A stretch of 64,000 nt of DNA from positions 24,889,210 through 24,953,209 of the forward strand of contig OX031073.1 in the NCBI GenBank assembly GCA_943736015.1. Reading direction: 5' to 3'. The notes under the pieces were generated by a model. It ran no database searches, was not told the DNA's origin, and was given only the letters and a program-made list of their open reading frames with translations. The stretch comes from Tridacna crocea (Eukaryota > Mollusca > Bivalvia > Cardiida > Cardiidae). This document shows, piece by piece, positions 12,101-63,850 of the stretch (positions are counted from its first letter, which is position 1; every line of letters starts with the position of its first letter). Both the position numbers and the translations under genes were made by a program.

Positions 12101-15100
12101 CAAAACTTGCTGTTATATTGCAAAAGAAAATTCTCGCGATCTGATTGGATAATATGCCCCGGACACCACAGTCATGTATTAGTAGTACTCTAGCAAAATC
12201 CACGTAAATGCAGTTTCTGCATTTCTGTGTGTTTCGATCAGGATGATCTACGTGTTTGTTTAAAGTGGTGCGTATCAAATGAGAATGAATGTTAAATGCA
12301 TACCTTGTTACACACGCAAACGAGACATGATCCGACCGGACAAAAATGCAGACAGCTGTAAAGTTCCTTTTATTATATCGTGGGTTTACGTCAAAAATCT
12401 CGTAACTACAGCTTATAACAAGCTGTAGTTACGAGGTTTTTGAAGTAAACCGACGATATACCTTCCATTTTCAACTGTAAAGAATACATGTACATCATAA
12501 ATTGAATTCCATACAAAACAAAATCAGGGAGCAGCCTGTTTTCAGTATTTGACTAAAAGAACCAAACGGGAACATACAGAAGTGCTCTGAACAGAGAATA
12601 TGCGTGATACGGAAAACCAAACACAGAGTAAATGAATGACAAGGAAAACCCCACTCAGAATACATGCGTGAAAAGCAAAAGCCCACACAGAATAGTTGGA
12701 TGAAACGAAAAAACCTACACAGAGTACATGGGTGATACGGAAAAGCCCACACAGAGAAAGCGTGATACGGAAAAAACCTACACAGAGTACATGCGTGATA
12801 CGGAAAAAAACTTACACAGAGTACATGCGTGATACGGAAAAGCCCACAAAGAGAAAGCGTGATGCGGAAAAAACCTACACAGAGTACATGCGTGATACGG
12901 AAAAAACCTACACAGAGTACATGCGTGATACGGAAAAGCCTACACAGAGTACGTACGTGATACGGAAAAGCCTACACAGAGAATGCATGACATGGAAAAA
13001 CCCACACAGAGTACATGCGATATCGAAAACGCTTTCTGGTCTGCTGTATATGAGCTGTTTCTGTGAAAATGTAGCTTTTAAAATGTGTCAACAACTACTA
13101 TCAACCCATGTCAGCCTGCCACGTCCGCGCAGGTGGACGGAGCGACTGATCGACCAACAGATATGAATAGGTCTTGAATTCCTGAAGTTGTTAGCCTTGT
13201 TATGGTAGCAAAATACAGAATGAAACCCATCCTAAGTTACGCTTGGTTTTTGGTAACGCTTGATTTTTTTTTAACGTACTTGGTTCATATCACCGTCCTA
13301 CATGGTCTTGGTTTAACGTCTCATCCGAGACACAATTAGACGTACTTGAGTTCAGTGTATAAACCGTCACATGGGACCTCGGTTTAACGTCTCATCCGAA
13401 AGACTATTTTGGATGGCCAGCTGTGGGTATCGAACCCACACCCTTATGATCACGAGTCCTACGCTCTACCAACTGTGCTATGCAGGCTGGTCTAGATTTT
13501 ATGATGGATTCTACATAAAGAGATATAGTCAAGGCCACAGTGTAGTGTGACAATGGTTGGTAGACCCTTTACCGAATAAACAAGCTAAATGAAACTCAGC
13601 CCAATATTAAGAACCCCAATGTTGGTGTTTCACAGTTATTTTGAAGGAAAAAATATTTCTGTATCGGACAGTGAAGATCTAAGATCAGATTGCACGTTCT
13701 GTGCAGTCTGATCTTAGATCTACATTGTCCGCAAAAGGTCAGCGATTTGCACCTAGCAGTCTGGAAGAAATGGGGCTGGTTATCGCAAACTTCTTGTGTG
13801 TCCACATATATCGGTGTCGGGATAGGTGTGAATTAATCTACCCCCACTGGTAGGTACAAAACCATCGATTAAACGCCACTGTAATAAAGGACAGGGGACC
13901 GTAATTGTATTCGTGTAACATCGCCTTTCAACGCCCAAATCGTACGTACTCGGGTAGGACACGGGTAGTCCGTAAACGATGCTGGGAAACAGCGTCCATC
14001 GGCCGATCGATAATAGATTACTCGAGTCTTAGCCGAATACCGTATGTTTTTATTCCGGCGATGAAACGAGCTGTTACCGGAATGCGCATTAGGGTCCTTG
14101 TCCTTAATCTCTGTATGAATGATTCGCGGTACAGATTAATGAGCCATGTTCCATAAAACGAAGGCTTAATGCATCTGCCAGAAGTATGGGCTGAGGTCAG
14201 TCTGCATGCTTATCTGGGCCGATCCTTTTTGCTGTTGTGGGTCAATTTTCTACTTGTCAAAGGACCAGTTTAGGTCATGATTCAGTCATTTATTGGACAA
14301 AAAATGAACTTTAAGGATCTATGATTGGGTGCTGACGTCGCTGGTTGTATTAACCCTTTACCTAATATCGTATCTCTAATTGACCCTAATTAACACCAAG
14401 GATGAAGCAGTTTCTTTTGTGTACATGACACCTTTTGATAGCATAGAAAACATTGTGGCAAAAGGTGAAATTGCTCGTGACGAGCAATTTCACCTTTTGC
14501 CACAATGTTTTCCAAAGGCTCGCACAAGCAATGCGCGGAGATGAGTATCAATGGAGTAAAGGGTTATGCACCATGGAGATGCATCAAGTCCCCTTTTGTC
14601 AGAGCATGGCTGATCTTCGTCATATATATACTCACTGCCGAGCTGACAAATTAGCATTTTACCACACTATCGCGATTCTTTGATACCTTGAGAAACAAGG
14701 CTTTTTCGATCAAATATTATGGTAGCCTGTGTAATGCAGAGAAATGACCCTCCCCAACAAAATGACCCATGGGTCACTTCTCAACGTAGAATAATGACCC
14801 GGGTCATTTTGTAGGGGAGGGGTCATTTCTCTGCATTACACCGACATTTTCTCCATTTTACATAATGAAATGCTGGATGGCGGCACGTTTCCCGTTGCCC
14901 GCAAAGTTTGAGAAAGCTTTATCGAAAGTATTATTAGCAATCAGAGGTTGATATGCGTGGATGCCCTAATGTGCACACTTTAAAGGCCAAAAGCATAAAC
15001 AGAGCCAGATACACATTCCAAAAAAAGAAATGGCTAGGGCGCTGTAAATTCGAAACCAAACAACAATATTTTAGAATTTTCCAAATTGAAAGCATTTTCA

Positions 15101-18100: not shown

Positions 18101-21100
18101 AGTCTTAGAGAAAATTACTCCGGTTCTGTACCCAGAATGCCAAAATCAGATAGGTGTGTATTTCAATAATTAAACCTATCGGAAGATAATGATATAAGGA
18201 TGTCCCCATTAATAAGTTTTCCATCGTTGTTGTTGTTATTTCAGTTATTTTCCCATACTAGCACTCCTCCATGAAGGGTATTCTTCTTGCGTGTGAGAAT
18301 TTTTTCACTATATTGTGAGTGTTCTATTTAGTTTATTAAGCACAAATTTTGGTAGACGCGAGCCGGAAGTTGGCCTTCATGTAGTACATTAGTCTATGTT
18401 TTAACATATAGCGCATCTGGGCCCGTATTCACAAACCATTCTTAAGAGCGTTCTGTATCTTATTCTCCAGAATTTTCTATATTTGTAAGTAACGCAACTT
18501 CTGATTGGCTAAACCATTCGGTTTACAAATTTAGAAAACCATGGCGAATAAGACCAAGAATATTCTCAAGAATGGTTGGTGAATACGGGCCCTCGGCATA
18601 TATTGGGATTAACCCATTACCACACAATCCTTACTTTTGACACCCCTGAGAAAGAAGCCTTTAGAAAACATTGTGGGAAAAGGAGAAAATGCTGGTAACC
18701 AGCATTTTCTCCTTTTCCCACAACGTTTTCTACCCTTTACAAGACAAATTTAAAAATTTCAGTCACTTTTATTTTGTCGTCTGCAATTCCTTTCAATTTT
18801 GACAAACCTAAGATTTTGTCGTTTGGTAATGAATTAAGAATAGAAGAAGATGCTGAGGCAATTCATTTACTAAGTGTTGGATATGAGGCGTGTTCTTCCT
18901 TGGTTTAGAGCACAACATAGACATTAAGAGCATCTTTCAATTTCTCTGGTTTGCTTACTGTTGAATGCGAGATGATTTTGGATAGATTCATGTGTATAAT
19001 ATAGTATACATTGTAGGAAATTATCATTTTGTTCATGGTTTAAAAATCTATCTCCAATAATTCCATTTATAGAATGAATGTACCTGTTTCTAATACTGGT
19101 CAAAGCTGTAAAAGATAGCATAAAATGTTATAAATCGCGTCCTATTTAATCACCTCGTAGTCGATAGACATTAACTGACAAAAGTAATTCCCCAGTAATA
19201 CAACCCAGTGCAATCGGGGAAAACTGAGAACCCAGTACAATCGGGGAAAACCAGTAATTGTCGCGTATAAAAGCTGACAAAGTAACACAGAATCCTTCCA
19301 TGGTAACGGTTAAATGGTTGCCATGAGAGGCAGGGGCTACGTATTGCGTTGACCAATGAAATTTAATCTTGATGGGGGGTCGACAAAAATGACACATAAA
19401 TAGTTCAAATTATCAATGATTGTCTTATTGTAGAAGTAGTTTTTTGTGGCGTTTGATGCGACAATGGTGAATTGAATACAGGGAGTTATCAATAGTTTTT
19501 CTTATGTTACATTGAACGATGGGTTCGGGTTGTGCAAAGGGTATGTCCGTACATTCTTTTCCAATACTTATCTTTTAAGTTACTGGTACCTTCCTAATGA
19601 AAAACAATAATTTCAACTATAATATCATCCCATATTTTTTGCTTTTCTATGAGTATTATTGCTCTACTTTAACTTATAACTAAACGGCAATTTTTGAGGT
19701 TTCTAAATCGAAAGCATTTGCAGACGACAAAATAAAAGTGGCTGAAAATTTGAAATTTGGTTTGTGAAGGGTAGAAAACATTATGGGAAAAGGAGAAAAT
19801 GCTGGTTAACAGCATTTTCTCCTTTTCCCACAATGTTTTCTAACGGATTCTTTCTCAGGGTCGACAAAAGTGGGCATTGTGTGGTAATGGATTAATCGAA
19901 CCATTTTTTTTTATCTTCTTAGAATTATAATTTACATGTATACATCTAAAACCACCATAATTTTATTACGAAGGGATATAATAATAACTTCTCTTCACAG
20001 GGAACTAACAAAAGTAGCAACTAATAATTTCAAGATAGACATCAAGGGAATTCATGGTCGGTTAGAAGAGTGCAAAATTCTATTAATTCAGTATAAATCC
20101 TTATTAAAAACTAATAAGAAATTTTATTCCATGTTGCACTAGACTTAGTTCCTATATCAGCCTGTCCAGTCTTTGTCGAAAGTTTTGCTGCCTTTCATTT
20201 TCTTCATTCATCGATAATTCCTTCGCTGTACTGATGTCTCGTTGGTCTATACTGTCAAGTGCTTTAGGGTCAATCTCTCTGAGGACATTTAGGAGCGTCT
20301 GTAAGTGTTCTCATTGTATTGCCAGGACTTTCTTGGTTTCTGAGAACTTCTCCTGTCCATCTGCCGATTTCATTTGTCTCCGTCCAATAGTCTGTTCCTA
20401 CTGTTTTTTCAGTGCATTGCAGAAAACCTATCATGGCATTTTGTCTAGCGCCCTATGTGGTCCCTTTGGTCCTCTGTCCCACCAGGTTGTCTGAGCTCTT
20501 CAACAAACAATCCCTAGGTTTCACGACCCTAATTAAGGAGTCTTATGAAAGATTGTAGGAAAAGGAGAAAATGCTGGTAAACAGCATTTTCTCCTTTTCC
20601 TACAATCTTTTTTTCACAGTAAAGAACATCAGGTCATTGGTTCCTATTTCAAACTTTTGTCTTCGGATGCTATAAATCTGGCAGATTAAAGAAAATAACA
20701 CTTTGGTATAAGGTAGCAAGTGTGCTGTTGGAATTGTCTGCAAGCATCTTTGTATGCTGCAATTGTCCATCTTGTACCCTTAGTCTGCAGCACCTTCAGA
20801 TGAGCTTGGTCCCTCTTGTCCATCAGTCGACGTAGTTCCTGGTAGTCTGAGTAATACCAATCTTGCTGCTTTCTTCTTTGCTGTACAAGAATTATTTTTG
20901 CTGTATTATAGACAACTTATCGCAGGGCTATGCATACTTGTTCCTCGGCAGATCCATGCATAACTTCAAGTTTGACGATGCTGTCATTCATGCCTTATGA
21001 CCTTTGGTCAGCAGCTGTGAGATTGGCAGTGTGAAGTTTGGAGAGCCTCTCGGTACCTTGCTTGTTGTACTTCTATCGAAAGAAAATGCAATTTTTTATC

Positions 21101-24100
21101 GCAGCATCTGATGGTCGGTGCAGCGATTTCCTCTTGATCCACGCATGATTCTTGCCTTGCTGAAGTCTATCTTTTAATTATTTCTAGTTACGGTGTAGTC
21201 TATGATTTACCAATAATTGGAGGTAGGGTGCATCCATGCGGTCTTTCTTTTAATTTTCTGCTTGAACAAGGTGTTTGTCATAACCAATTCAAATTCTGAG
21301 TAAAGAGAAAGTAGTTGCTCTCCATTTTTAATTACACTTGCACAATTCATGATTTCCCCAAGCCGGTAGGCCTTGTCGCGGCCAACCCCTCCCTGGCGTT
21401 GAAATCTCCCATCAGTACAGGCATGTCAGTAGGAAGGTTCTTTCAGGGTGCACGACCCTAGAGGTCGCAGGTTAATTTGTGCAGACACCACACCATTCTT
21501 CATTTAATTTGCCTGAGAACAGAGAGAAACGACTTTGGAAAAGGGGAAAAAATCAGTTTATCAGGTGTGCTTTCAAAAGCCCTCTTCCTCCGGTGTCGTT
21601 GAAGCACGTGATTGTTAGGTGAAGGGTTAAGGCTTGGAATAAGTTTGTCTTTGATCAAAGAGGCTGCAGAGGAAACTTTGCCGGTCAAAATGAACGATAA
21701 ATATAGTTTATTCTAAAAATGATTTACTATAGGGAGATATTGCAGATACAGGAAGAAACCTATCCCAAGTTAAGGCCTGGTTCGTAAAAATGCTCGGTCA
21801 TAGCATCTTCATACAGGACTTCGGTAAAAGTCTCATCCAAAAGACTACTGTTAGTTTCAGATTGCTAGGCATGGGAACCGAAACCACATTCTCACGTGAC
21901 CCGCAACATCACGTTCAAGAATCCCAAGTTTATCAAACGAGCTATGGGGGCTGTTAAATTGAATGATGACCCTGTGGCAGAAGGTTGTTAAAACATTGTG
22001 GAAAAGTGTGAAAAACCTAAATAGTTTACTTACCTCACGCATTGAATTCCTATCAGGTTTTCATGGGCGAGTGAGTATACCATTCTAGTATCTAAATTAA
22101 GGAGGTATATTTCCCGAAAAACAGAGAACATCTTTATAAAATAATAAGAAAACGCGGTTTTTATTTTTCGTTTCGCAAAATTTTTTAGAGTACATGCCCC
22201 TCAAGGTCGTAAGGTTAACCCTTTACCAAACAAGCCCTGGTTTTTACGGCCCTGGGATAGTAGTCTTATGAAAACACTGTGGGAAAAGGAGAAAATGCTG
22301 CTGAACAGCATTTTCTCATTTTCCCACAATGTTTTCTACCCTTCTGGATACAATTTCAATTTTTCGAGTAACGTTTAGTTTGTCGACTACAAAATTTGCT
22401 CTATTCGGACTAGTCTAAAATCTTGTTGTTTCGTAAAGAATTAACTCTTTACCAAACGACAAAATTTTAGGCTGGTCCAAATTCAAAGCATTTGCAGACG
22501 ACAAAATAAATGTAACTCAAAAATTGAAATTTGTTTCCAGCAGGATAGAAAACATTGTGGGAAAAGGAGAAAATGCTGGTTACCAGCATTTTCTCCTTTT
22601 CCCACAATGTTTTCAAAAGACCTTCATCTCAGGGCCGTAAAATCTAGGGATTGTTTGGGAAAGGGTTAAAGGCATTCAATACAAGTATGGGTGTGAACTG
22701 GACACTCCGATGAAACACAGTCTCGCCCTGTTCCAACCTATCCCGGGATATCACGACTCACAGGAAACAGGCCGTTGAAAACATTGTGAGTAGAGAATGT
22801 TACGGGAGACCACTCCTTCGTGCATGACTTAACAACTGCGCCAGGGAAAATTCTTTTTAGCTCAATGGTTATGGTGTTGGCCTTCCGTCTGGGAGTTCTA
22901 AGTTCGATTCCTGCCCAGTAGCTTTATTTCTGCTATGCATCTATTCATCTGTTTCTTTGTAAAGGACTTTGTTCGTAAGATTGGGTCTCATCGTTAGTCC
23001 CATTTGTTGTTCGAAAACGGACTTTGTGTCTATTAAAGGTGGGTATCTAGAATTTTCACATTCCACCAAATTAAACAATATCTTTATCACTGAAATCTAT
23101 ATGAAAAAACAATACAAATCATCAATAATAAAGAACCATAAAATAAAAAAAAAACAATGATGGTATTCTCTTAAAAGGCTACGTAGCCTCTTAAGCTGTT
23201 TTTAGATTTCCCGCCAAAAATAAGAAAAAAACATTGTGGGAATGTTAAGTGACTTGCACGTGACTAATGATGCTGAAATGCCATAACATAACAAACATGC
23301 AATTATTTTCCATAATGTCTTTTTCGGACGCGATGTTTGAAGCTTCGTCTGTATGATTCCAGTGTGTAAATGAGCGAGTTGCACATGTAAAAATAGATAG
23401 TGTTTCCCCTCGGTGTCGACCTGGGCTGCAGAAAATCTCTAATTTCTCTTGTTTTCGGATGGATTTCGACTACTGGGGTTTTATAAACGAAAGTTATAAG
23501 GCTTTTGGAGTATAAGGATGATTTTTTTGTATTCTTGAAAAATTTTCGTCCCAAAATCTGAAGGGCCACCTTTAAGGCTTTGCGTCATCAATAAATAATG
23601 ACTTTTAGAGGGTATGTTTCGGGAAACTACTCCTTCATGCATGGGTTCATCCTGGTTTCAAAATAATGCCTAACGACTGCGCTAGGGAAAACTCTGGTAA
23701 CCAACGCTTTTCCCTCCTCCAACATATATTTTTCTATCTATTTAACGACAAATCTCATAGCTTGAGTCATGTTGTCATCTGAAATTGACTTAAATTCAGA
23801 CAAGTCTGAGATTTTTATTTTTCATTTGGTAAAGAGTTAAAACGGCGATAAAACAAACAAACAAACGAAGAAACATACAACGAACGAACAAACAAAAACA
23901 CAAGCAAACAATATCGTGTCTAGATAACATAGCCATATTTTTTTCCCAATATTTCTCATTAATTGTACTTGTCGGTCATTTACAGTTCATTTTCATCAAC
24001 ATTCGTTTCATTTACATTTACGTAAGTGTTCTTTTGGCATCGTTAAACTTGCGCAATGAATAACAGAACTCCTACGAATGTTTTAACACAACCACTTCAC

Positions 24101-30100: not shown

Positions 30101-31028
30101 CGCTTGTACCATTTTAGCCACATTGAAATTGTCATCTGCAAATGCTTTCAATTTAGACAGAGCTAAAATTTTGTCGTCTGATAAAAGGTTAAATAATGCA
30201 TCCCCTTGATCCATTGTACCAAGCAAGTCAATGCATTATTATAGATCCAAAGCACTCGTTTATCCAACAGCCGCCCGAACCATAGGGTTATACTTTGAAG
30301 AACGTATAGAGATATCCTTGCATTCTATTTTAACAGAAACAGCGCCAATTCAGCGAAGAGTGGAAAAGAAGATTTGACGTCACTCTCAACTGTTACTTCA
30401 CTACGATTAGTCGCCTTTGTGGGAAATCGGCCCCTTATATTAAGGGGTGTAAAGGAGTAATAGTGGTTAAGTTATGGATAATAAATAAGGACCCTAAATA
30501 TTCCAAACTGAACAGTATTCTACATATGCCTGTCTTACAGTGGCATGGGATTGATATCAAATTACAGTGTAAGTACATTCAGCTTTTTACAGGACAAACT
30601 AGATCATGGACAATGATGAGAGTGAAAGCCTCTTGATCAGACGACAACATTTTAGATTCACACATATTTGGAACATTTGCAGGCGACTGGTTAAACGGGA
30701 CTTGAGAGACGGGACATTGTCTTTGAAGGCCCGTAGAAAACATATTGAAAAACAGATGGATCCTGTTATCATTTGTATCATCAGTTTCGTTTCTTGGTGA
30801 ACAATATTATAAAGAAAGATGACTGAAGAAACCAAACAAGTTAAAGCATTTAACAATTTGAAGTTTAAGTTAGAAATGCATCGCTACTGAAAGGAACAGA
30901 CTTCTTGTTCTTCTCTTCCTCGCCCTTCTCTTTTTTCTATGTATTGTTCTTCTTGTCCATCTTGTTCTTCTTGTTTTCATTTCTCGTGTCCCTCTTATCC
31001 TTGTTATATTCGTCTCGGTCTTCTTGGA

Positions 31029-46219: not shown

Positions 46220-46448
46220 TTAACCCTTTCCCAAACGACAAATATTAGACTGTTAAACTGACAGAGTTTGCAGACAATAATTCTAAATTTGATGAATATG
46301 GTAGAAAGTTCTCTGATATATAGGGTAGAAAACACTGTGGGAAAAGGAGAAATTGCTCATTATGAGCAATTTCTCCTTTTCCCTCACTGTTTTCAAAAGA
46401 CTTGTACTGCAGACACGTAAAAACCAGGGCTTGTTTGGAAAAGGGTTA
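46220..46448 (+). repeat. family A element, third core type
   Basis: TTAACCCTTTCCCAAACG to GGAAAAGGGTTAG. Core GGAGAAATTGCTCATTATGAG. Confidence 0.92.
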
Positions 46449-46784
46449 GGAGGGCAGTCAATCTTTGGAACTGTCCAGATCAATGTGCCAGTACTTGTGA
46501 AGGTTATATCACCATAGGTGATCAATATAAAAGTTGTAAGATTCACGAGTATCTATAATTACAGTGCAAAATAAATAATATTGACCTCTTCTACGACTGA
46601 AGATACAATTCACTGAAATTTTCTAATGACGAGAATAACCCTTAGTTCTAAATTTACAAAAAGCATCTTCGATCTTATCACATGTTTCCAAACATAGCCT
46701 GTTTACTTATTGTGATTTATAACCGTTTCGCTCTCTGGTTTGTTTCTCACTGTATTAGAACAATTGGGGTTGTATAAAAGTCAA

Positions 46785-53300: not shown

Positions 53301-56300
53301 AGTTTTTCATTATTTTTTCTCAGTAAAAGTCATGAGAAGACAAAGTTTTGGCCATTTAACCTGAATTACATAAAAAGTTAAAGTATGATTTTCAGGATAT
53401 CGAAGAACTGTACATTGTATAGATCAAGGTGCACTCCGCATATCGCCTTTGTGAGTTTGTTCCCTTGTAATGTAAAAGAAAAAGTTTATGTTTATATGGC
53501 TAAAAATTTTGAACCTGTCTTGTCGACACTTTGCATTTTTAAGCATACACATTTCATTAGTGTATATTTTTGCCTTTGCAAACACAGACTTACCCCATGC
53601 AGGAACCATAGTCTTGACCATGAAGTTGGGGATATAAGTGCCCAAAACTTTGACAAATCTCAGATACTGTAGAACGCCTTCAACAAGCATCCACATGAAT
53701 GATACCAGAATAAAGTAGTGAAGGAGGGCGGCCACAACCTTACAGACCAGCTTGTTTTCTGTTCGTTCCATTCCCAGCAGAAATATTACAGATGAACAGA
53801 CCATAGCTACCGACAAGTTGATCAGCACCTTTTGCCCGCGGCCATTACGTAATTTTCTGGAGCGAAAAGCAGGGTCATTTACGCATCTAAGGAAGTTTTA
53901 AATTCAACACTGTAATCTTCGATATTTTGACTAAATTACCTTTTTTCAAGAGTTCGATGCACTTTTTCCGCTTTCATATCTTTAATATAACTTTAATATA
54001 AGTGTGCAATTCTCCAACCAATAAGCAAACGTTCTAAAGCAACAAGTGCTTCGAAACACTCGAAAAAAGCAACACCAAAAGTATCGAAGGATAGAGTTTT
54101 TTCCCTTTTTTTTTATTTTGCTTATTCAGTACATTTGATAATATAACACTAGTTATCGAATGGAAATCTACCCGAAGACAACAGATTTTGATGAAAAATT
54201 ATCTTTGATATAATTCATTGTTATTCCATTGAATGGTGCACAAAGTTTCGTTAATGATCTGGCATTTTCACACAGAAAATGAAACAAAAACGTTCTTTAC
54301 TGCAAATCAAAGAGTCAGATTATCGAGTATGTCTGCACCTCGCACAAAGCCGAAATGTAGAAAAGGACAACATCCTACAGCAAGGTAAAAACCTCAAAAT
54401 TCCTGTCGGGGGAGACGAAACTGGCAAGTTTTGACAAAAGCAAAGGGTCACAATACTGGATATCTATCATGTGACTTTTTGATTGATGGCAAGCAAGAAC
54501 TTTTTGCATAATTTTCTGTTTAAAACTTTTAATTCATTTTACAGAAATTTTGTCTAATACTCGTTGGAACAATAACTGATAACAATGGTTATTTCATGCT
54601 TTCCCGCAGTTAATCGAGAAATAACGGTGAAATATTTTTCGATATTTCATGTTTACGACCAGTGAGAAATACCGATTTTATTTCCTAACTCTTCAATTGA
54701 GGACGCAAATAGTAGTTCCCGCGCACTAGTTACCTAGGCAAAATTGTCATTTACATCATTGGTAGTATTACCTATGATGTCCACTCGATGAAATGAATTC
54801 CACCAAAAAGAAAATACCTTCTATATGTATAAATTGATATCCTCCGGCAGATTTTCGGCTTTTAAATGCATTGAGTGTAAGATAAGTGTTCCATTGATTA
54901 CAAAAATAAACCAGACAGATCTGAATGTTAGTAATGATGACGAAGATTTAACCCTTTCCCACACGACAAACTTTGCACTCTTCCAAACCAAAAGAGTTTG
55001 CAGACGACCATTTTAGATTTGGAGAAAATGGCAGAAAGTTCTCAAAAAGGGTAGAAAACACTGTGGGAAAAGGAGAAATTGCTCGTTATGAGCAATTTCT
55101 CCTTTTTCCACAGTGTTTTCAAAAGACTCTTACTGCAGACACGTAAAAGCCAGGGCTTGTTTGGTTAAGGGTTAATACAAGAATTTTTCTTAGTGAAAAT
55201 ATTATCGCAATATAAAGACTAGGTATGAATTGAAGTTCGATTTATTTTTATGACTTTGTCTTCTTTAATAGCTTTTGAAAATTTCGAAAATGTGCTAGCA
55301 TAGAAAACATCAAATATGGTATCATTATAATAAGTACAGGTATTCAAATGCATTACTTATGACTTGGCTTTACTTACTTAAACATCACAAAAGTCACAAT
55401 GCCAAGGCCCAGTCCAACAATGGAGAAACTTAGTCCAACTTTCGTGACAACTTTCAACACCAGCTTGTTTGTGCTGGAGATCGTATGAGCTTCTAAATCC
55501 TGTAAACATATACATGTACTTAAACTGAGAAAAGAATATTAAATGCATCTGCAAACGTTTCGCAGTACGTGTAGGCTAATCCAAATCAACACTTTCCGGT
55601 TTTTTTTTTTTTTTGTTATGTAATTTTCTGTTTTGCGCAAGTCTACTGCACTGCAAAATCAAATGTAGTTGTAAAGTGCCGTTTCATATTAGCCTGCGCG
55701 GACAACACTTTACGCAAATGTCTGAATGTCCCATTTTGCGTGTTGCAAGCCACAATTACGATATTTGGTGTTTCATTGCCAGTGATGACAGTGGTGGCAT
55801 TACTAATTCCCAATTGACCTCGTATAGGCGGTGGACAGAAAAAACATATAACAAAAAAAGGAAGAAATCAAACTACTTACAATGAGCACAGCAAAATTAG
55901 TGAGATGGTTGCACCGACATGAGATTCTCTTGTCCGGTAAAACTGTCATATCACAGCCACCAGTCCGCCATGCCCCGCCTTCTTGATCAGCTCTGTAGTC
56001 CCAGTACCCACAGACTGTTCTGTTGTCTTCCTGTGAGCAATACATCACAGATATCTATACACATGAACATTAAATCAAAATGGCCAAAAATAATTGACCA
56101 TTGAGTACAGGAAACTTAAAACAGATTTATATCCATGTTTTATACATAGCTTGAATGACAACAGCAAATGTATTAACTCTTTACCACACAAGAAGATTTT
56201 AGACCAGTCCAAATTGAAGGCATTTGCAGACAACAAAATAGATGTGACTGAAAAATTGAAATTTGGTTTGGGAAAAGTAGAAAACATTGTGTGAAAAGGA

Positions 56301-58841
56301 GAAAATGCTGGTTACCAGCATTTTCTCCTTTTCACACAATGTTTTCAATAGGCTTTTTTACTCAGGGTCGTCAAAAGTCGGGATTGTGTGGTAAAATGTT
56401 AAACACAAACTTATAACATGTAAATGGGTGGCGCTTTAGTAATGCTCATGAGTATAGATAGATATGCTAAGCACTGTGGAAGATCATGTGCTTTAGAGAA
56501 CAATTAGAAACCGCTCAAGCATTCAAGATGCATTAAACTCAATGCGCCTTTACTACAGATAAAACATAAGGAAAAGCATTCGAGAAAGAAGACCAACTCC
56601 TTTTTTAAACAAAAGTTTGGTCACTTTCAAGTTTAAAAAGTTTGTTTTGGAAGCATGTGAGGTTCTCTTTTTTCAGATACTGTACCTTCAAAGGCTTGAA
56701 CACAGCTGTCACTGTATCATTACCAAGGTCTGTCACTTGTTTTCCATTAATCTTGAGACTTGCTGCAGCAACTTTGCTTATCAGCTCGAATCTATTGGAA
56801 TAGACTGTGTTGAAGAGGGAAGTCTTACCGTAGATCTGAAATACCGTTCTCGTCTCTTTATCTGGAACATAATAGAAAGTCCAGGATCAATTTTCACAAA
56901 CTATTCTGAATAGTGTTACTAGTTTAATTCTCAAGAATTTTCCAAATCTGAAAACAACCCAACGCACTTTTTGACAGGCAAAACAAAATAAATTGGCTAC
57001 TCAGAAATGGCGTTACGTTCTAAATCTAGAGCCATACCAAGAATACAAGTCATAAAGGCTGGTGAATACGTTCTAGAGGAATGTCTACGTAAGCCTTCTA
57101 CTCTTTGTAGCTCTTACTTGTGCAGTTACCAGTTTTAGTTCAGAAACATGGTTGGTTTTCAAAAAACTCAGTCCATGGACAAGAGCCACTTGTTTTAAAA
57201 GACTAGTTCAATCTCTGCGCTATCCTGGATCCATATTCACCAATCATTCTTAAGAGCATTCTTTGTCTTATTTTCCAGATATTTCTTAAGTTCAAAGTAA
57301 CATAGCTTTTGATTTACTAACCAAATGATTTAGACAAACAGAAGTCGTGTCACTTTCGTCTTTGGACAGTCGTAGAAAATTAGATATTTTTTAAGAACAG
57401 TTGGTGAGAATGGACCCAAAATGATTGTCAAACCATTAATTGACAAAATCTTGATTAATTCTCCTACTTGTCACTTCGTACCCCAGGTTTTACTTTCCTT
57501 TTATCCCTTAAAATACCTTTCACTACTACAGCTGCCTTTGCTGCCGGTAAAGATAAAGATTAGACTGCAACAAAATGTGCAGTCTGATCTTTGATATACA
57601 CTGTCCACTTTACCGTGACATTCTTAACAACATCGACTATGATAATTCGTCTATTTCGGTCTTTTTTCTAGATTCAAAATGTTTCTCAACATATGTTTAT
57701 CAACACAATACATGTATATAAAATCTTCAAGCATTTGTCAACAGTGTTGATAATCAATACATAGACTGTATTTTCTGAACGTATCCTAATATGTATAAAC
57801 ATATCTCTTTTGAAAAATAATTTGTTTATACCTATGAGAATGTCTTCATCGAAATAAATAGCCGTATCAGTAACGCTTGAATCAGTGTCTGTTGGTTGTT
57901 CAACAGTAAATAGATCATTGCTGTCTATGGTATCTTTGTATTCCTCTTGGTGCAGCTTGAAGCCAATAACAAGTGTCCCTTCACCGTCCTGATCCCGCAC
58001 TTCAGAGGCTAGAAACTTTTGTACAATACGTAGGCTACTTTGTAATGGTAATGGGACATTGTTAGTCAGTTCTTCTAGGGACTCGATGATCCTTGGAGAA
58101 AACATAGTCAATATTTTCATTTAGATAATCACGTGAACCTTAAAAGTAAAAGTGCTTGCCCTGTTTCTTACGTGCATAATCACAACATTCAGATATGTAA
58201 ATCTTTGTTCAAATGACATAAGATATAGCTCACAATAAGAAATGATACGTCGATGCTGCTGATTGTTCAAGCTTCAAATCATAAATAGTACAGAACAAAA
58301 GCAGCTAACGTTAAGCTGTTGAAATACTGGTTTCCCTTTCATTATTTAATGAAATTCTTTATTATGAAACATGAAAACAATAAATAAAAAACAGGTGGTT
58401 GATCCTGTGATCTAAGTATGAAATGAATTTAGAAACTACCAGCCTATGCCTGTATGTTGTTTGAGAGAAAATGAGGATCAAGATAAAACTGGAATTGCGG
58501 ACACCAGTTTTGTAGAATATCCTTGGACCCAGACCTTTTTGCAAATAACAACATTGCAAAAACTCTGTAAGATATGATCACCACTCTAGGATTGTATCCT
58601 TGGTGGTAAAAAATGAAGAAATGGAACTAAAGTAAGAAGTAATCAAGTATATCTTCAACCTGTTTCCAATGTTCGATACTCTTTTTGCAGCGTCGGTAAG
58701 ATCAGGAATTCGTTCAAGGATATTGTTGACTATTCTATAGATATCAGTCAGTATCTGAAATGAAAACGTTAAATGTTAGACCGTCATTTTGCATTCCTTT
58801 TCTAATTAATTATTTGTTCCACGACCCTTCGAAATTTCCGC

Positions 58842-58887: not shown

Positions 58888-61800
58888 ATTCCCCCTCTCT
58901 CTCATTCAATTCTCTCTCTCTCTCTCTCTCTCTCTCAGATTCCCCCTCTCTCTCTTTCAATTCCTTACCTTATTTCACACCTTTAAGGCTTAACCCGTTA
59001 AGTAAGTGAAATGATACATACTACGCTATAGTACGTACAAGATCAGATATAATCAACACTTATTCGCTTAAATTTATCAAATGCAAACTGGCATCATTCA
59101 GACCATATTAAATTGCACACTCTTCTACTCAAAGCTAAAATTGGTTTGCTTGACCTTTAACCCTTTCCTACATAGATACTCATTTTGACATCTCAACAAC
59201 AGACAGCTTTTGAAAACATTGTGGGAAAAGGAGAAATTGCTCGTAAAGAGCAATTTCTCCCTTTCCCACAATGTTTTCCACTTAATCAGATATTTGTATC
59301 GTCATTTGTCCATATTTTTGACATCATATCTTAATTTGCTGCTGAAATGGAAGAGCCTCAAATTGGCATATCAGGGAAAGGGTTAAAATGGTAATGATTT
59401 TTATTACAATTTAAACAATAATGTTACGTATTTTTTTCTAATCTACATTTAAAAGATGGTGAATGTAGTTATATGAGATCAACGTTCTGTCACTTTGGTT
59501 GAATCACACATCATTCATTATGAATTCTAGATAGTGTTTCCCTTTTCATAAAAGCCTTGAAACCTTCATCATTGTATGTTTCCCGGAGCACCAAAACAGA
59601 GAACTACAACTATGTTTCAGATTTGTTTTCCCAAAAATTTCTGAGAGCATGAAAATATCCTTCAAATAAACAGGAGTAACGTTTCCGGACACTAACGGTG
59701 ACAGTTTTCCCCCAAAAGTTGCTGAGATCTTTGGTAAAACCAAAGAGCGTCCCATGAAAATGAAAGAGACCTGGATGACTTGTAAGCTCTGTTTTATCAT
59801 GGTTATCCATCAAGACTTTTGACTTTTAAAGAACCACAGCTTTAAAACCCTTCTACAAATATTTGATCAGGAGGGAAATTTGTGTTATTGTTGAAAACAT
59901 TTTCCTCAGCACTATTTTGAAGTTTCTCGAAAAAAAAAAAACACACAAATAAAATGATTGGTAAGGAAATACGACTGAAACACTACAGTGGGGGGAGGCG
60001 AAGCAGATTTTTCTGATCTATCTGTTCAATAATAATTTCGGCACTTAATGTAAATTACGAGCCATGCTCTCTGAAAAGGCAACTTAATGCATCTCCAAAA
60101 AGTTATGACCCAGATCAGCCTATGTTGACTGCACAGGCTGACCTAAATCGATACTTTATGCTAATTTATCGCTATCAACTTGTTCTATTGGCCAGTTTTC
60201 TGCATGTCAAAGCACCAGTATACCTCAGTCCGATATTATAAAAAAATGACTCATACTACTGGATGTTATGAATTACGGTGATGCATTAAATACTCTTTTA
60301 CCAAAGCATGGTCCCTTTTTCCGAAAAACAATCTTTACTTTGCCTGCACGTGCAGCCTAATATTGGCAAACAGTCTCAACCTCATCACAACACACATTTA
60401 TTCATGGTGTTGAATGATATACTCACATCTGGAATAGTCACAACAAATTCCCAAAAGTTAAATACTATTTCAGCGACGTAAATTACATCAGCCTCTGTCA
60501 GAGTAAGGCTTGGGTCTGTAAGCGCCAGCGTACTACTCAAGACATCTTTTAAGTTGGTGCCATCAAGCTGAATCTAGATGGGAAAACAAATATATGTACT
60601 TTTTCTCCCTGTAATCTAAATAAAGTACCAGATTTTACTAACTTTGCTTCTGATAAATGAAATTTTGGTTTTTAATACATTATCAAACAACACGAAAACC
60701 ATAAAGAGTCCTTTAGTTCCTTTTAGCAAACTAAGGCTTAAATGACACTTTAGTATTGCTATTCCAGATTGGGGTGGGAAGGAATGTCCTTCTCCTACAG
60801 TACGGGTCCAAGATCAGACAAAATCAGCTAGCCTGAAGACGCAAGATGCACATTCTATTTAGTCTTAATCTATAGTGTCAGTACAAGGCTCTTGAGTCGT
60901 GTTTGGCACTCTCAGGGCTAATTTCACCCGTCATTTCATTGATCACTCATTTCTAAAAAAAAATCATCAGATTTACAATACAACTGAATATGGATATTTA
61001 TAACAAATGGGATCAGTTTACCTCTGCTTGCGCCTTCAGGCTAGCTGTACTGTCTGACTCGTCTAGAACTGGGAAAGGCTCACATCTGGGACTGTAAGTT
61101 ATATATCCAAACCTCGCGCTGTCATCGTAGCCTCCCAAGCACTCTCTAAATGCAAAGGCGCCACTTACTGAAGAAAGAGAAACGTAAAACCTGAAGAACA
61201 TGAAAGTTCGCAACAAATGCAGAAACAAAAACCGCACCTGGCGGGATGAGAAAAGATCCTCGTTTATTGAGATTTGAAAGGCCAACGCCATAACCCCTTA
61301 CCATACAACAAAATTTTAGACTGGTCCAAATTGAAAGCACTTGCAGACGACAAAGTAAAGGTATCTCTAAAATTGAAATTTGTTTCCAGCAGGGTGAAAA
61401 CATTGTGGGAAAAGAAGAAAATGCTGGTTACCAGCATTTTCTCCTTTTGCCACAATGTTTTTAAAAGGCTTCTATATCAGGGTGGTAAAAACCAGGGATT
61501 GTTTGGTAAAGAGTTTACTACTAAGCCAAAGAGAAATTTCCCCAACACACTGATTTGCGGATCAGAAATGAAATATTGCTCAAATGGTACGTTTTGTCCG
61601 TGATGGGATACAAAAAAATGTGGCAAAGGAGAAAGTGCTGGTTACTAACAACTCCATTTCCCCCACTTTTTTTAACCCTCTATCCCATAAGGCATTTCTA
61701 TGGTATCTCTAATTGACCCTAAATAACAGCATGGATGAAGCCGTTTCTTATGTGTATATGACCTTTTGATAGTGCAGAAAACATTGTGGCAAAAGGTGAA

Positions 61801-62887
61801 ATTGCTCGTCATGAGCAATTTCACTATTTGCTACAATGTCTTCCAAAGGCTCCTACAAGCAATGTGTAGAAATGAGTATTATGGAGTAAAGGGTTAAAAG
61901 CCGTCTTTCTCAGGGTCATTAAGACTCGGGATTCTCTGGTAAAGGGTTCAATTACTTTTTCTGTGCAAATACATTATCAGTGTTTTAGACAGCATAGATC
62001 AATTATAAAATGGATCGTTCTGTGTGGTATGATCTCGATGCTCGCCGCCAACAAAAAGCACAATGAGAAGTGTACATCACGTACAGACATTACTTACTAG
62101 ATACTGGAATGGCTGCGCCACTCCTTTAAGTATTATTGATACCGATCACTCTAGGAATGAAATTTATATCTTTCACAAAAAAAATTGTATCAATCTCCAT
62201 TAAGTTTTTTTTCACACTCTAGTTTAGCAAAGGCATCTGTACTAGCTGTAGAAGGTGCGCGACAGTATTCCCGATGATGGTCACTCGATTAGATAAATAG
62301 AGGATATTTGTTTTTTCGCGAGTTGCGATCTAACGAGTGAAAATATTACAGCTGGTGTTCTAGAGATGAAATATTTTTAGATCTGTTACAGAAAATATAT
62401 ATATATATATATTTGTTACATTCGTCATACCTCTTTTGGAAGCTTACATCAAAATCTAGAACAGTTCTTCTCGGTATTCCCCGTGGTGTATCCTCTCCAT
62501 GCAGAACAAAGCTTTATAATATTACGTAAAGCTCAAGAAATTTAGAGTAAATTACATCATAATTCCACCTGGTTGACTGGCACGTGCTGTTTACCTAGGT
62601 AAATAGTGTCCGAGAACTTTGGTTTCTGCCTTTAATTTGAAGAGTTAGAAAATAAAGCCAGTATTTTCACTGGTCGTAACCATGAGATATTCCACCGTGC
62701 TTTCGTAATAAACAACCGAAAAACATGAAATGAATTTCGATCTTTCATCGAAAAAGATATCCTCTAAAAATCACCATGTATGTACCTTCATAACACCTCT
62801 CCCAACTGTAGCTTATCTCGCCTACACGGACAGAAGGAAATGTTACTTCTGTACCATTCACATCGAGTTTAACGCGCCGACAGGCAA
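47101..62887 (-). CDS. adhesion G-protein-coupled receptor, 13 exons, N-terminus outside window
   Basis: Exons on the minus strand in gene order: 62887-62786, 61167-61022, 60573-60427, 58754-58660, 58091-57832, 56861-56686, 56054-55881, 55499-55378, 53856-53594, 51817-51748, 51437-51238, 49661-49534, 47304-47101. All junctions are GT-AG and phase-consistent; 694 visible residues. Order: HormR-like Cys module (1-61), GAIN helices and beta region (83-308), GPS (309-366) with C..W........C.C and HLT at 358-360, seven transmembrane helices (from about 385 to 620), 67-residue tail. In this family the GAIN domain cleaves itself before Thr of HL/T and the freed N-terminal end of the 7TM part acts as a tethered agonist; the needed residues are present. 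The subfamily cannot be fixed without the missing N-terminal domains. Confidence 0.93.
47305..47930. other. intron 12, first part
   Basis: AT-rich; short frames on the + strand have no support. Confidence 0.5.
47933..48072. repeat. family F palindrome
   Basis: AGTTGTGCGATCAGGTGGC to CCACCTGACCGCACAACG. The G in the GTGCG end and the C in CGCAC are mirrored relative to the GTACG of other copies. Confidence 0.9.
48820..49157. repeat. dispersed repeat with GACGGACAGACGGAC tail, copy 1
   Basis: ACCTCCCACAAGCTCCTTG, AGGTCTTTGTTACAGAATGC, GCACATGCACAACTTCATAT, ACTGACGGACAGACGGACAC and CCAGTAAACCCCCTCC, in the same order as at 50068-50412. Confidence 0.9.
49534..49661 (-). CDS. adhesion GPCR exon 12, TM6-TM7
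   Basis: GLTWVFGFLAIGGARITFHY then VFAALNAFQGFFIFLLFT. The LTW.FGFLA and N..QGFFIF motifs are typical of family B2 receptors. Donor CAG|GTAACA. Confidence 0.96.
49760..49846. repeat. family E palindrome
   Basis: AAATCGTCGGTTTACTTCG to AAATAAACCGACGAAAT. The AAATCG/CGAAAT ends are mirrored changes relative to the usual ATATCG/CGATAT. Confidence 0.9.
49855..50062. repeat. family C element, partial
   Basis: AATCATGCTCTTGCAAAAAG, then AAACCATTATGGATCCATG, then GTTTTGACGCAGGTCAGC. It is cut by the next repeat. Confidence 0.7.
50068..50412. repeat. dispersed repeat with GACGGACGGACAGAC tail, copy 2
   Basis: Same order of landmarks as 48820-49157, ending CCAGTATACCCCCTCC and ACGTGGTATAATTAG. Confidence 0.9.
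50413..51237. other. intron 11, remainder
   Basis: No recognised element. CGATTAGCCTGATTGGTCG-like symmetry at 50505-50525 is short and may be chance. Confidence 0.45.
51238..51437 (-). CDS. adhesion GPCR exon 11, ECL2 to TM6
   Basis: (Y)CWLARDAMIYGFIIPVAVIL opens TM5 after the conserved ECL2 CW. Then HNLLRRKSHKMASNQSERK is intracellular loop 3 and LHLQAAVSIFVVM enters TM6. Confidence 0.96.
51748..51817 (-). CDS. adhesion GPCR exon 10, TM4 end and ECL2
   Basis: (G)IPAIPVVTIAILDHELYYGG then NGY; phase 1 in, phase 2 out. The small exon splitting TM4/ECL2 joins in frame to exons 9 and 11. Confidence 0.93.
51818..52199. other. intron 9, part
   Basis: No recognised element. Confidence 0.45.
52200..52588. 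repeat. family I element, copy 2
   Basis: CTCAGATTCATAAATAAGTG and GTGCACTTAATTTTC at the left; AATTAAGTGCACACTTATTC and GTGGAACTGAG at the right. The middle shares CGACGTCGCATAGACC-like and TCTGTTAGTCAAAAT-like blocks with 6419-6870, in partly different orientation. Confidence 0.82.
52586..52858. repeat. family B element, full length
   Basis: TGGGGTGCAAGACGCC to GCGTGTTGCAGGCCATAT; both palindromes well kept (GGATTGGCCTGCGCAGTCC and inverse). Confidence 0.92.
52856..53036 (+). repeat. 89-bp tandem duplication
   Basis: TATCGTCATTTGTCTAACAA and TATCGCCATTTGTCTAACAA each precede GCATGAGTACACAACGGTTT and ATGGCGCTA. About 6 differences between copies. Confidence 0.92.
53038..53273. repeat. family C element
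   Basis: GAGCCATACTCTTTCAAAAG to CCTTCTCAAAGCATGGCTG. Confidence 0.8.
53594..53856 (-). CDS. adhesion GPCR exon 9, TM2-TM4
   Basis: KLRNGRGQKVLINLSVAMVC (TM2), ENKLVCKVVAALLHYFILV with the conserved TM3 Cys, SFMWMLVEGVLQYLRFV (the FMWMLVEG motif of family B2), then TM4 start. Donor TGGG|GTAAGT. Confidence 0.97.
53857..54589. other. intron 8, part
   Basis: AT-rich, no element recognised. Confidence 0.45.
54590..54815. repeat. family K-like element
   Basis: CCGCAGTTAATCGAGAAATA, TTTTCGATATTTCATG, ACGACCAGTGAGAAATACCG, GTTACCTAGGCAAAATTG and CCACTCGATGAAATG, related in order to 62560-62760. Confidence 0.6.
54948..55175 (+). repeat. family A element, third core type
   Basis: TTAACCCTTTCCCACACG to TTGGTTAAGGGTTAA. 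Core GAAAACACTGTGGGAAAAGG with the inverse CACAGTGTTTTC: the T-to-C change in ACATTGTG is mirrored. Confidence 0.93.
55378..55499 (-). CDS. adhesion GPCR exon 8, TM1
   Basis: DLEAHTISSTNKLVLKVVTK then VGLSFSIVGLGLGIVTFVMF. First helix. GPS-distal stalk is short, as usual. Confidence 0.95.
55551..55757. repeat. family B element, partly deleted
   Basis: TAGGCTAATCCAAATCAACAC, GCGCAAGTCTACTGCACTGC and CGTGTTGCAAGCC. The right palindrome is missing its second half. Confidence 0.78.
55881..56054 (-). CDS. adhesion GPCR exon 7, GPS
   Basis: 58 codons, phase 0. Cys at residues 314, 323, 342, 354 and 356, Trp at 326 and 337, ending CRCNHLTNFAVLI. HLT at 358-360 is the self-cleavage site. Matches the GPS consensus C.YWD.......W...GC.......C.CNHLTNFA.L. 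Confidence 0.98.
56173..56402 (+). repeat. family A element with a mirrored arm change
   Basis: TTAACTCTTTACCACACAAG to GGTAAAATGTTAA. Core has GTGTGAAAAGG on the left and CCTTTTCACAC on the right, where other copies have GTGGG and CCCAC. Confidence 0.93.
56686..56861 (-). CDS. adhesion GPCR exon 6, GAIN domain
   Basis: (D)KETRTVFQIYGKTSLFNTVY, then NRFELISKVAAASLKINGKQ and VTDLGNDTVTAVFKPLK. Beta-strand-rich GAIN subdomain B pattern (V.A.L......L...V...FK). Confidence 0.93.
57226..57420. repeat. family L element, diverged copy
   Basis: GGATCCATATTCACCAATCA with TTCTTAAGAGC, and TTTTTAAGAACAGTTGG with GAGAATGGACCC. Confidence 0.7.
57540..57612. repeat. family G, partial
   Basis: AAAGATTAGACTGCAAC and GTGCAGTCTGATCTTTGATA, then TACACTGTCC. 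Confidence 0.65.
57832..58091 (-). CDS. adhesion GPCR exon 5, GAIN domain
   Basis: (R)IIESLEELTNNVPLPLQSSL, RIVQKFLASEVRDQDGEGTL, VIGFKLHQEE and a Thr/Asp-rich loop, ending TAIYFDEDILI. The acceptor is TCCAAG. Exons 5 and 6 join through a split Asp codon. Confidence 0.9.
58092..58659. other. intron 4
   Basis: No recognised element. Confidence 0.45.
58660..58754 (-). CDS. adhesion GPCR exon 4, GAIN helix
   Basis: ILTDIYRIVNNILERIPDLT, DAAKRVSNIGN; amphipathic helix of GAIN subdomain A. Phase 0 in, 2 out. Confidence 0.9.
58843..58967 (+). repeat. CT microsatellite
   Basis: Two CT runs separated by CAGATTCCCCC and CATTCAATT. It lies about 90 bp upstream, in gene sense, of exon 4 in intron 3; read as GA on the gene strand. 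Confidence 0.97.
59157..59386 (+). repeat. family A element, hybrid form
   Basis: TTAACCCTTTCCTACATAG to GGGAAAGGGTTAA. The arms match the GGGAAAAGGAG type but the loop is GAAATTGCTCGTAAAGAGC. Confidence 0.93.
59387..60059. other. intron 3, part
   Basis: A-run at 59930. No element or exon recognised; two overlapping minus-strand frames near 59600-59800 have no splice or homology support. Confidence 0.45.
60060..60312. repeat. family C element
   Basis: GAGCCATGCTCTCTGAAAAG to TTTTACCAAAGCATGGTCCC; core GACCCAGATCAGCC and GGCTGACCTAAATC. Confidence 0.85.
60427..60573 (-). CDS. adhesion GPCR exon 3, GAIN subdomain A start
   Basis: IQLDGTNLKDVLSSTLALTD, PSLTLTEADVIYVAEIVFNF and WEFVVTIPD. The L..AL...T..... 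LT..DV...A.I pattern is usual for the start of GAIN helices. Confidence 0.92.
60790..60930. repeat. family G-like, decayed
   Basis: TACAGTACGGGTCCAAGATC, GTCTTAATCTATAGTGTCAG and CAAGGCTCTTGAGTCGTG. Confidence 0.4.
61022..61167 (-). CDS. adhesion GPCR exon 2, second part of the HormR-like module
   Basis: (V)SGAFAFRECLGGYDDSARFG, YITYSPRCEPFPVLDESDST and a helix ASLKAQAE. RECLG......A.(W/F)G.......RC fits the C-terminal half of hormone-receptor-type modules in adhesion GPCRs, with Phe where Trp is usual. Confidence 0.88.
61205..61545 (-). repeat. tRNA-derived SINE split by a family A insertion
   Basis: CAACAAATGCAGAAACAAAA, ACCGCACCTGGCGGGATGAG and AAGGCCAACGCCATAA, then after the insert ACTACTAAGCCAAAGAGA. 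The uninterrupted relative at 63880 reads ATACCATAACCACTGAGCC across the same site. Confidence 0.75.
61290..61517 (+). repeat. family A element nested in a SINE
   Basis: ATAACCCCTTACCATAC to GTTTGGTAAAGAGTTTA. The terminal TTAAs have mutated; the core palindrome has two mismatches. Confidence 0.88.
61617..61950 (+). repeat. family A element split by another family A
   Basis: ATGTGGCAAAGGAGAAAGTG to CCCCCACTTTTTTTAA, and after the insert AAGCCGTCTTTCTCAGGGTC to TCTCTGGTAAAGGGTT. Confidence 0.8.
61672..61897 (+). repeat. family A variant-core element nested in family A
   Basis: TTAACCCTCTATCCC to GGAGTAAAGGGTTAA. Core GGTGAAATTGCTCGTCATGAG with mismatches on the right arm. Confidence 0.9.
61965..62050. 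repeat. family G, decayed
   Basis: AGACAGCATAGATCAATTAT and GTGTGGTATGATCTCGATG. Confidence 0.4.
62265..62780. repeat. family K elements, diverged
   Basis: CACTCGATTAGATAAATAGAGG, GAGATGAAATATTTTTAGATC, then CCACCTGGTTGACTGGCACG, GTTTACCTAGGTAAATAG and GAAATGAATTTCGATCTTTC. Pieces of one family in both orientations. Confidence 0.6.
62786..62887 (-). CDS. adhesion GPCR exon 1 visible, HormR-like module
   Basis: ACRRVKLDVNGTEVTFPSVR then VGEISYSWERCYE; phase 1 in and out. FP....GE.......C fits the first half of the module. It needs a further upstream exon, not found in 62900-64000, so the gene continues to the right. Confidence 0.85.
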
Positions 62888-63394: not shown

Positions 63395-63850
63395 GGCATT
63401 GTGAAGAAGGAGTCTAATGCCTCTGCGAAAGTATCGACTCATATCTTCCTATGCAGTCTCCACTGGCTGACATGGGCCGAAACGTTTTTGCTATCCTTAT
63501 TTATTTCATGTCAAAAGACCATTCTATCCCATGGTTAACTCTTTACCAAACGACAAAATCGTAGACTTGTCCAAATTGAAAGTACTTGCAGACGACAATA
63601 TAAATATGGCTCACAAATTGAAATTTGTTTTGGGAAGGGTAGAAAACTGTGTTGGAAAAGGAGAAAATGCTGGTAACCAGCATTTTCTCCTTTTCCCACA
63701 ATGTTCCCACAATGTTTTCAAAAAGTTTCTACCTCAGGGTCGTTAAAAATCAGGATTGTATGGTAAAGAGTTAAACAAAATGGAGGGGGTCAATAATCAT
63801 GTGACGGCTTGCTTGGAAAATGCGTTACGCAGATGCATTAAAACGGAGAT
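63395..63850. repeat. family C element carrying a nested family A
   Basis: GAAGAAGGAGTCTAATGCC, GTATCGACTCATATCTTCC, GGCTGACATGGGCCGAAACG, then after the insert ATCATGTGACGGCTTGCTTG and GCAGATGCATTAAAACGG. Confidence 0.8.
63535..63774 (+). repeat. family A element nested in family C
   Basis: TTAACTCTTTACCAAACG to ATGGTAAAGAGTTAA. The right arm contains an 11-bp tandem duplication (TTCCCACAATG repeated). Confidence 0.92.

Follow-up and report, generated by a model that had tools for sequence, protein, structure and literature searches.

The question raised by this locus is why the two arms of a long palindrome at the centre of a miniature element should change in step from copy to copy, and whether that palindrome is part of how the element multiplies. 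We consider it here for the whole 64-kb stretch of DNA that was analysed, which we refer to as the window.

The copies and their ends

A profile search, with the profile seeded with eight copies and then iterated, found 26 copies of a TTAA-flanked, piggyBac-like MITE of about 227 bp in the window. Oriented copies of at least 100 bits number 25, and the 26th, on the minus strand, which is the lowest-lying of the family and begins at base 365, was retained at 73 bits; shorter or weaker matches (67 bits or less) were excluded. The copies were divided by eye, on flank and stem divergence together, into 21 that are well kept and 5 that are decayed. An earlier note on this DNA had claimed about 20 well-preserved copies within 14350..63774, and 19 of our 21 do lie inside those coordinates. 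The copies are as follows, with the bit score and any further basis for the description in brackets.

Well-kept copies
9424..9655, plus strand: family A copy, stem 9534-9601 (178 bits, alignment)
10469..10692, plus strand: family A copy, stem 10576-10642 (201 bits)
14350..14567, plus strand: family C copy, perfect stem 14446-14512, mirrored 13G>C, 20A>T, 25A>T and 30G>C (106 bits)
18609..18837, minus strand: family A copy, stem 18664-18730 (214 bits)
19669..19894, plus strand: family A copy, stem 19774-19840 (187 bits)
20496..20693, minus strand: flanks strongly diverged and TTAA ends unrecognisable, near-perfect stem 20548-20612, mirrored G>A and C>G (117 bits, sequence, column pairs 6/63 and 12/57)
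22215..22444, minus strand: family A copy, stem 22270-22336, adjoining the 22441 copy at TTAA (177 bits)
22441..22669, plus strand: family A reference copy, perfect stem 22548-22614 (226 bits)
24587..24815, plus strand: family A copy, stem 24694-24760, mirrored 7T>C (218 bits)
28623..28850, plus strand: family A copy, perfect stem 28729-28795 (206 bits)
29961..30192, minus strand: family A copy, stem 30019-30085 (196 bits)
40021..40249, plus strand: family A copy, stem 40128-40194 (203 bits)
41117..41344, minus strand: family A copy, stem 41170-41237, mirrored 11G>T next to a 2-nt insertion (174 bits, alignment)
45384..45612, minus strand: family C copy, stem 45439-45505, mirrored 20A>T, 25A>T and 30G>C, site 13 differing between arms (123 bits)
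46220..46449, plus strand: family B copy, stem 46328-46394, mirrored 25A>T, 30G>C and 31G>A (158 bits)
54948..55175, plus strand: family B copy, stem 55054-55120, mirrored 7T>C, 25A>T and 30G>C (174 bits)
56173..56401, plus strand: family A copy, perfect stem 56280-56346, mirrored 12G>T (205 bits)
59157..59386, minus strand: family D copy, stem 59212-59278, B-type core with C-like right flank (134 bits, alignment)
61290..61516, plus strand: family A copy, stem 61396-61461 (207 bits)
61672..61897, plus strand: family C copy, stem 61777-61843, mirrored 13G>C, 20A>T, 25A>T and 30G>C (108 bits)
63535..63774, plus strand: family A copy with 11-bp tandem duplication in right arm, stem 63642-63719 (204 bits, sequence)

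Decayed copies
365..554, minus strand: 21 arm mismatches (73 bits)
8541..8755, plus strand: 11 arm mismatches (118 bits)
24156..24359, minus strand: stem 24181-24247, 7 arm mismatches (115 bits)
35255..35474, minus strand: 15 arm mismatches (104 bits)
40597..40806, minus strand: 14 arm mismatches (103 bits)

The plan of the element is asymmetric, with a left flank of about 105 bp, a central palindrome of 67 bp that consists of 33 bp per arm about 1 base, and a right flank of about 55 bp. Copies with both ends are 218-240 bp in size. Arm mismatches, with gaps uncounted, number 0 in 4 copies, 1-3 in 15, 5 in 2 and 7-21 in 5, and with 0-3 mismatches in 19 of the 26 the palindrome is indeed near-perfect and of the 60-70 bp that had been proposed for it.

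The ends are of the form TTAAC[C/T]CTTTACC... on one side and ...GGTAAAGGGTTAA on the other, with much variation. That TTAA and ends of a common type are shared by the copies is borne out by a search for the end motif TTAACCCTTT with at most one mismatch, which gave 36 matches where 9.1 are expected, a number reached in 0 of 100 shuffles. The TTAA sites are intact at 153 of 160 positions in 20 copies, the copy at 20496 being without recognisable ends and the 5 decayed copies being left out.

There are at least four flank types around the one core. Type A has 14 well-kept copies, type B those at 46220 and 54948, type C those at 14350, 45384 and 61672, and type D that at 59157. The flanks of A and C are 51-61% different and so close to unalignable. 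The tip CC[C/T]T, given as a hallmark of the TTAA-targeting piggyBac superfamily (PMC2872659), is exact at 12 of 12 ends of B, C and D, yet at only 6 of 28 ends of A, where the tips are often CTCT, CCCA or TCCA.

The small uniform size and the high copy number (26 in 64 kb) are as for a MITE of the piggyBac superfamily, and the copies are too short to encode a transposase, although a 110-aa open frame runs through the copy at 61290. There are 22 open frames of at least 110 aa in the window, and the 10 scanned against Pfam included no transposase, the sole match being a secretin-family receptor fragment, which points to an animal source. The element is a TTAA-targeted MITE of piggyBac-like type, present in high copy and apparently non-autonomous. 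TTAA is also the target of the Kolobok superfamily. Similar repeats may be carried by dreissenid mussels, and peptide-like translations of this repeat may occur for many animal genomes.

Paired change in the two arms

The arms change together. For 20 of the 26 copies the arms give a covariation score of 0.169, which 0 of 500 shuffles reached; shuffled partners give 0.073 (sd 0.009) and slid partners 0.029-0.047. In these copies both sides have changed at 10 of the 33 pairs where 4.3 are expected, and 96.3% of cells pair. This set excludes the copies 365-, 8541+, 35255-, 40597-, 41117- and 63536+ and includes one decayed copy, 24156-. Mirrored change is thus beyond chance. When all 26 copies are counted, mirrored cells number 29 where 7.4 would be expected (0 of 20,000 permutations), many of them being family-level changes counted once per copy.

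At the family level the changes 25A>T and 30G>C are mirrored in all 6 copies of B, C and D, and 20A>T in all 3 of C. In the case of 13G>C the change is mirrored in 2 of the 3 copies of C, the third carrying C in one arm but T in its partner. The stem differences between families are mirrored and follow the flank families, and the two core types that the earlier note recognised are both present. At the level of single well-kept copies there are 12G>T (56173), 7T>C (24587 and 54948), 31G>A (46220) and 11G>T (41117), while 20496- has 11G>A and C>G, 6 bp apart, the C>G being visible only in the covariation alignment. The individual variants singled out previously were all found, as AGATTGTAGG/CCTACAATCT near 20547, GTGTG/CACAC near 56288 and ACACTGTG/CACAGTGT near 55060.

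A second palindrome family in the window, with five copies, has two convincing mirrored changes and a third that is probably an alignment artefact, so paired change of arms is not unique to this element.

From mirrored change the earlier note had drawn arm-to-arm copying or selection for pairing, and it proposed a test of whether arms are more alike within a copy than the same arm is between copies. We looked at this by permutation of mirrored sites, with and without 20496- and the decayed copies. Within the 14 well-kept family A copies, a set (hereafter A14) that leaves out 20496-, families B, C and D and the 5 decayed copies, there are 3 mirrored sites against 0.71 expected (p=0.022), a modest excess, and 27 left-right mismatches against 32.0 expected (p=0.011); with 20496- added there are 4 mirrored sites against 0.93 (p=0.007). 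The five decayed copies give no mirrored excess, with 6 observed and 5.60 expected (p=0.52). When right arms were shuffled among flank sisters, for 19 of the 21 well-kept copies, there were 40.2 mismatches against 37 within copies (p=0.12), and for the six closest groups 26.5 against 25 (p=0.25); the 8 groups were hand-drawn from flank trees, with 20496- and 59157- omitted, and some are poorly supported as clades. Among flank sisters the arms of one copy are therefore not significantly more alike, and at this fine scale the refuting condition set by the earlier note, arms in a copy no more similar than the family tree predicts, may hold.

The decay of these five old copies is without mirroring, and we find no support for arm-to-arm correction of resident copies in situ; of the implication originally drawn, the joint change of the arms is supported and copying in resident copies is not. 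Given the lack of a mirrored excess in decayed copies and the non-significant sister shuffle, mirrored change looks to belong mainly to the spreading lineages and to be mostly inherited. Inheritance, however, shifts the question back in time, as the lineages A, B, C and D have altered both of their arms yet kept one architecture. There is no sign of exchange of left and right flanks at the stem over 20 copies, in which the two sets of flank distances agree (Mantel r 0.86). Inside A14 they agree weakly (r 0.29, p 0.036), which leaves room for exchange inside family A.

Conservation of the core and its possible role

No other part of the element is as well kept as the core. Arm sites 20-30, which are the 11 bp next to the tip on either side, are almost invariant in A14, with mean pairwise differences of 0.00 and 0.013. 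The outer arms stand at 0.10, the 5-nt tip at 0.18, the terminal repeats of 13 bp at 0.23-0.26 and the flanks at 0.26-0.27. The ratio of flank to stem variability is 3.74 (2.79-5.60, bootstrap over copies), and in a partitioned ML tree the stem evolves at 0.285 times the flank rate for A14 and 0.266 times for 21 copies. In those 21 copies we see 42 single-arm changes, against 187 expected from the flank terminal branches. The left stem edge is sharp, with 0.44 in the last 8-base bin outside and 0.07 in the bin spanning the stem start, and the right edge is softer, with 0.14 in the spanning bin and 0.25 in the next. Within family A the internal region is better conserved than the terminal repeats, and the core is common to B, C and D too.

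In the 21 well-kept copies, for which low mismatch is partly a product of selection by eye, 1 of 231 inner pairs and 35 of 418 outer pairs are mismatched (p=1.7e-6, or 0.0001 after correction for a scan, the boundary at site 20 having been picked after viewing the data). The decayed copies have 24 of 55 inner and 40 of 100 outer pairs mismatched, so that there the inner sites are unprotected. Profiles of the flanks alone gave 26 left and 19 right matches. Stemless copies with good flanks are absent from the 15 left and 14 right matches of at least 40 bits (core score at least 43 of 67), a weak check, since the A copies from which the profiles were built make up 14 of those 15 left and all 14 right matches. 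Seven of the 26 left-flank matches, all of 35 bits or less, have a core score below 28, the random 95th percentile.

With a core better kept than the rest and arms that change together, it is reasonable to propose, as the earlier note did for the hairpin, a role in multiplication. Our preferred reading, which we put forward tentatively, is that the central palindrome may be a cis-acting module required for mobilisation of the copy, and probably a two-fold-symmetric recognition site. Constraint that peaks on two 11-bp half-sites, with a variable 5-bp tip between them, is what one would expect if a dimer reads the site or if the palindrome forms a looped hairpin. The site would take up about 27 bp centred on the dyad, the two half-sites and the tip together; a dimer might bind it as duplex, or it might be presented as a hairpin, and the outer 20 bp or so of each arm would assist. 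A dimer of the transposase C-terminal domain would be the obvious candidate for binding. Copies with a damaged core would father no new copies, spreading lineages would retain the core while their flanks drift, and a core change in a lineage would alter both half-sites; once inserted, a copy would decay, core included. We infer that a core fitting a dimer would keep its halves alike and change both when the specificity of its partner changed. The arms are unlikely to be extra copies of the terminal repeat, a possibility that we reject as 18 comparisons against shuffled arms gave no significant common motif (lowest p 0.0205). The lack of such a motif counts against the mobilisation-module reading, as do the absence of a transposase from the 10 frames scanned, the softer right edge of the stem, the weakness of the flank-profile check and the restriction of the evidence to 64 kb of one genome.

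With regard to age, 7 of the 160 TTAA positions in 20 copies have changed, against 18.8 expected if the flank terminal branches were entirely post-insertion decay (P=0.0017). Much of the flank difference thus seems to predate the last insertion, and to lie between spreading lineages. Single-arm mismatches, at 39 of 660 pairs or 2.95% per arm site, are overall consistent with the TTAA clock. At the TTAA rate, however, about 20 of the 462 inner-arm sites in the well-kept set of 21 should have changed, and 1 mismatch is seen. Either the well-kept copies are younger than TTAA implies, and the mismatches of the outer arms represent lineage variants, or the inner core was maintained in place for a while, and this tension counts against the simplest form of the mobilisation-module reading.

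The covariation could also come from selection for pairing, if the stem is required to form a hairpin, whether as RNA or as single-stranded DNA in replication or excision, the mirrored changes then being two-step compensatory substitutions. Copy 22441 folds at -88.6 kcal/mol as RNA (z -10.05; z -10.91 as DNA), and the variable 5-nt tip would suit a loop. However the arm sequence itself is conserved, beyond what pairing asks, and the outer arms tolerate mismatches at the 35 pairs noted above. Single-arm mismatches in the 21 well-kept copies show no bias to GU over AC (14 against 11), on which ground we reject RNA-level selection from one strand. Further, each of the 4 mirrored changes at family level is an A/T or G/C flip, without a wobble intermediate, as against 10 of 42 single-arm changes (Fisher p=0.006); the excess is weaker with the 9 mirrored sites that we listed by hand (5 of 9, p=0.07) and when the 11G>T of 41117, initially omitted, is added (5 of 10, p=0.11), and so is suggestive only. 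We consider selection for pairing rather unlikely, and favour it less than the recognition-site reading.

Similarly doubtful as a full account is template switching at replication, by which one arm would be copied onto the other in a spreading lineage in one event, with the constraint on sequence having a separate cause. Template switching is reported to fix base pairing in existing stems (PMC8794818). It needs no wobble intermediate, which matches the flips, and the two mirrored changes 6 bp apart in 20496- and those of the second palindrome family are in its favour. However on its own it would let the arms drift at the speed of the flanks, which they do not, and resident copies that have decayed lack the mirrored excess. 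It may well be the supplier of double-change variants.

Ectopic gene conversion, in which breaks at an extruded hairpin are repaired from other copies and the centre is homogenised, would fit a variability that declines from 0.27 in the flank to 0.10 in the outer arm and 0.00-0.013 in the inner arm, as well as the gradual right stem edge, and could account for inner arms that look younger than the TTAA sites. The tip would be the expected maximum of conversion and is variable (0.18), the left edge is sharp, and core types remain with their own flank families, so we think this improbable. History alone, with a few perfect-palindrome founders that differed by chance and were recently amplified, agrees with the non-significant sister shuffle and the absence of mirroring in decayed copies, but it is very improbable, as the consensus cores of A and C differ at only 4 of 33 arm sites, all mirrored, while their flanks have diverged almost beyond alignment, as founders still had to alter both arms, and as it does not hold the core still while flanks drift.

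To return to the mobilisation module, there is a wider form of it that we offer as speculation. The palindrome could be a portable propagation module, a third, central and two-fold-symmetric site that outweighs the terminal repeats for spreading. It would be shared by several families of TTAA MITE whose flanks are nearly unrelated, and would switch its specificity through joint change of the half-sites, perhaps in a single template switch. The usual view of MITEs is that they depend mainly on their ends, and a better-kept central palindrome with several flank families would say that a feature of the middle decides which copies spread.

Relation to known systems

Rfam, at the gathering score, has no match for the element, the only match in the window being a tRNA at 13415-13487. 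Two patterns had 0 matches in a genome contig collection and two specific patterns 0 in a viral contig collection; phages (query 22442-22668) and plasmids (query 54949-55174) likewise gave no match, and as these are prokaryote and virus data the absence says little. One match to a short one-arm pattern, in a contig judged to be phage, was put down to chance. Judging from listings of the literature, we found no account of this core.

MITE-derived microRNA hairpins of the MADE1/mir-548 type also come from a near-perfect palindromic MITE, and the present element is possibly a source of hairpin RNA as well. However in MADE1 the arms are the terminal repeats, whereas here the palindrome is internal.

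Both piggyBac and piggyBat have TTAA as target, as does this element. The account of their complexes in PMC11707139 has two CRDs, one from each monomer of the dimer, jointly binding a palindrome in the transposon end, and the palindromes of the two systems are unrelated in sequence. The likeness thus extends to palindromes, theirs being recognised by transposase CRD dimers, and this favours the dimer-site reading. However theirs are of 14-19 bp and in the ends (PMC11707139), as against 67 bp and central here, and this counts against it.

The closest known system to this family is that of the CMITEs, TTAA MITEs of about 100 bp in Acropora corals (Wang et al. 2010, PMC2872659). As described there, CMITEs have the TTAA duplication and mostly CCCTTT-type ends, and families with differing ends share an internal region that is conserved between families above the terminal repeats, which its authors suggest matters for transposition (PMC2872659). 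The cores are unrelated: the 60-bp internal consensus of CMITE has no match in the window (blastn, E up to 1), with matches of only 4-7 bases to this stem, and its longest exact inverted repeat is 5 bp, in contrast to the 67-bp palindrome. CMITEs also lack the size of the present element, with its 227 bp or so and its covarying arms. Our element is best described as a piggyBac-like TTAA MITE that behaves in the manner of a CMITE but has a different internal sequence. The coral paper left open the question of the internal region for its own core, and a palindromic core with mirrored, family-specific variants makes that question testable, as arm-by-arm mutants could separate duplex recognition, hairpin pairing and template switching.

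A second palindromic family

The window also holds a second palindromic family of five copies, separate from the main MITE (the TTAA-flanked piggyBac-like element), in which the arms start with ATATCGTCGGTTTACTTC and the centre is AGCTTGTNACAAGCT. This family has mirrored changes of its own, substitutions on one arm being matched by the complementary substitution on the other, and these are marked in the list of copies:

1985-2060, copy
12374-12460, copy
15482-15566, copy, mirrored T>G
42013-42087, copy
49762-49844, copy, mirrored A>G

Stem and ends of the main MITE

The stem at 63642-63719 carries CCCACAATGTT twice in its right arm, an 11-bp tandem duplication, and a clustered change in its left arm, which together look like slippage or a template switch within the stem.

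Two oppositely oriented copies at 22215-22669 have a single TTAA junction in common, and as this junction is shared it is probable that one copy used the other's end as its insertion site. Changes in the TTAA are skewed to the right end, which has six of the seven changed sites, spread over 5 of the 20 copies counted.

Tandem repeats and a coding fragment

Other features are as follows:

2653-4904, tandem array of about 2.2 kb, 77-80-bp units in both orientations
17310-17599, tandem duplication of a 144-bp unit, 100% identity
37710-38819, tandem array, 73-bp unit, 15.4 copies
53427-53897, minus strand, secretin-family 7-transmembrane receptor fragment (Pfam PF00002, E 2.7e-14)

As the two 144-bp units are identical, the duplication is either very recent or an assembly artefact.
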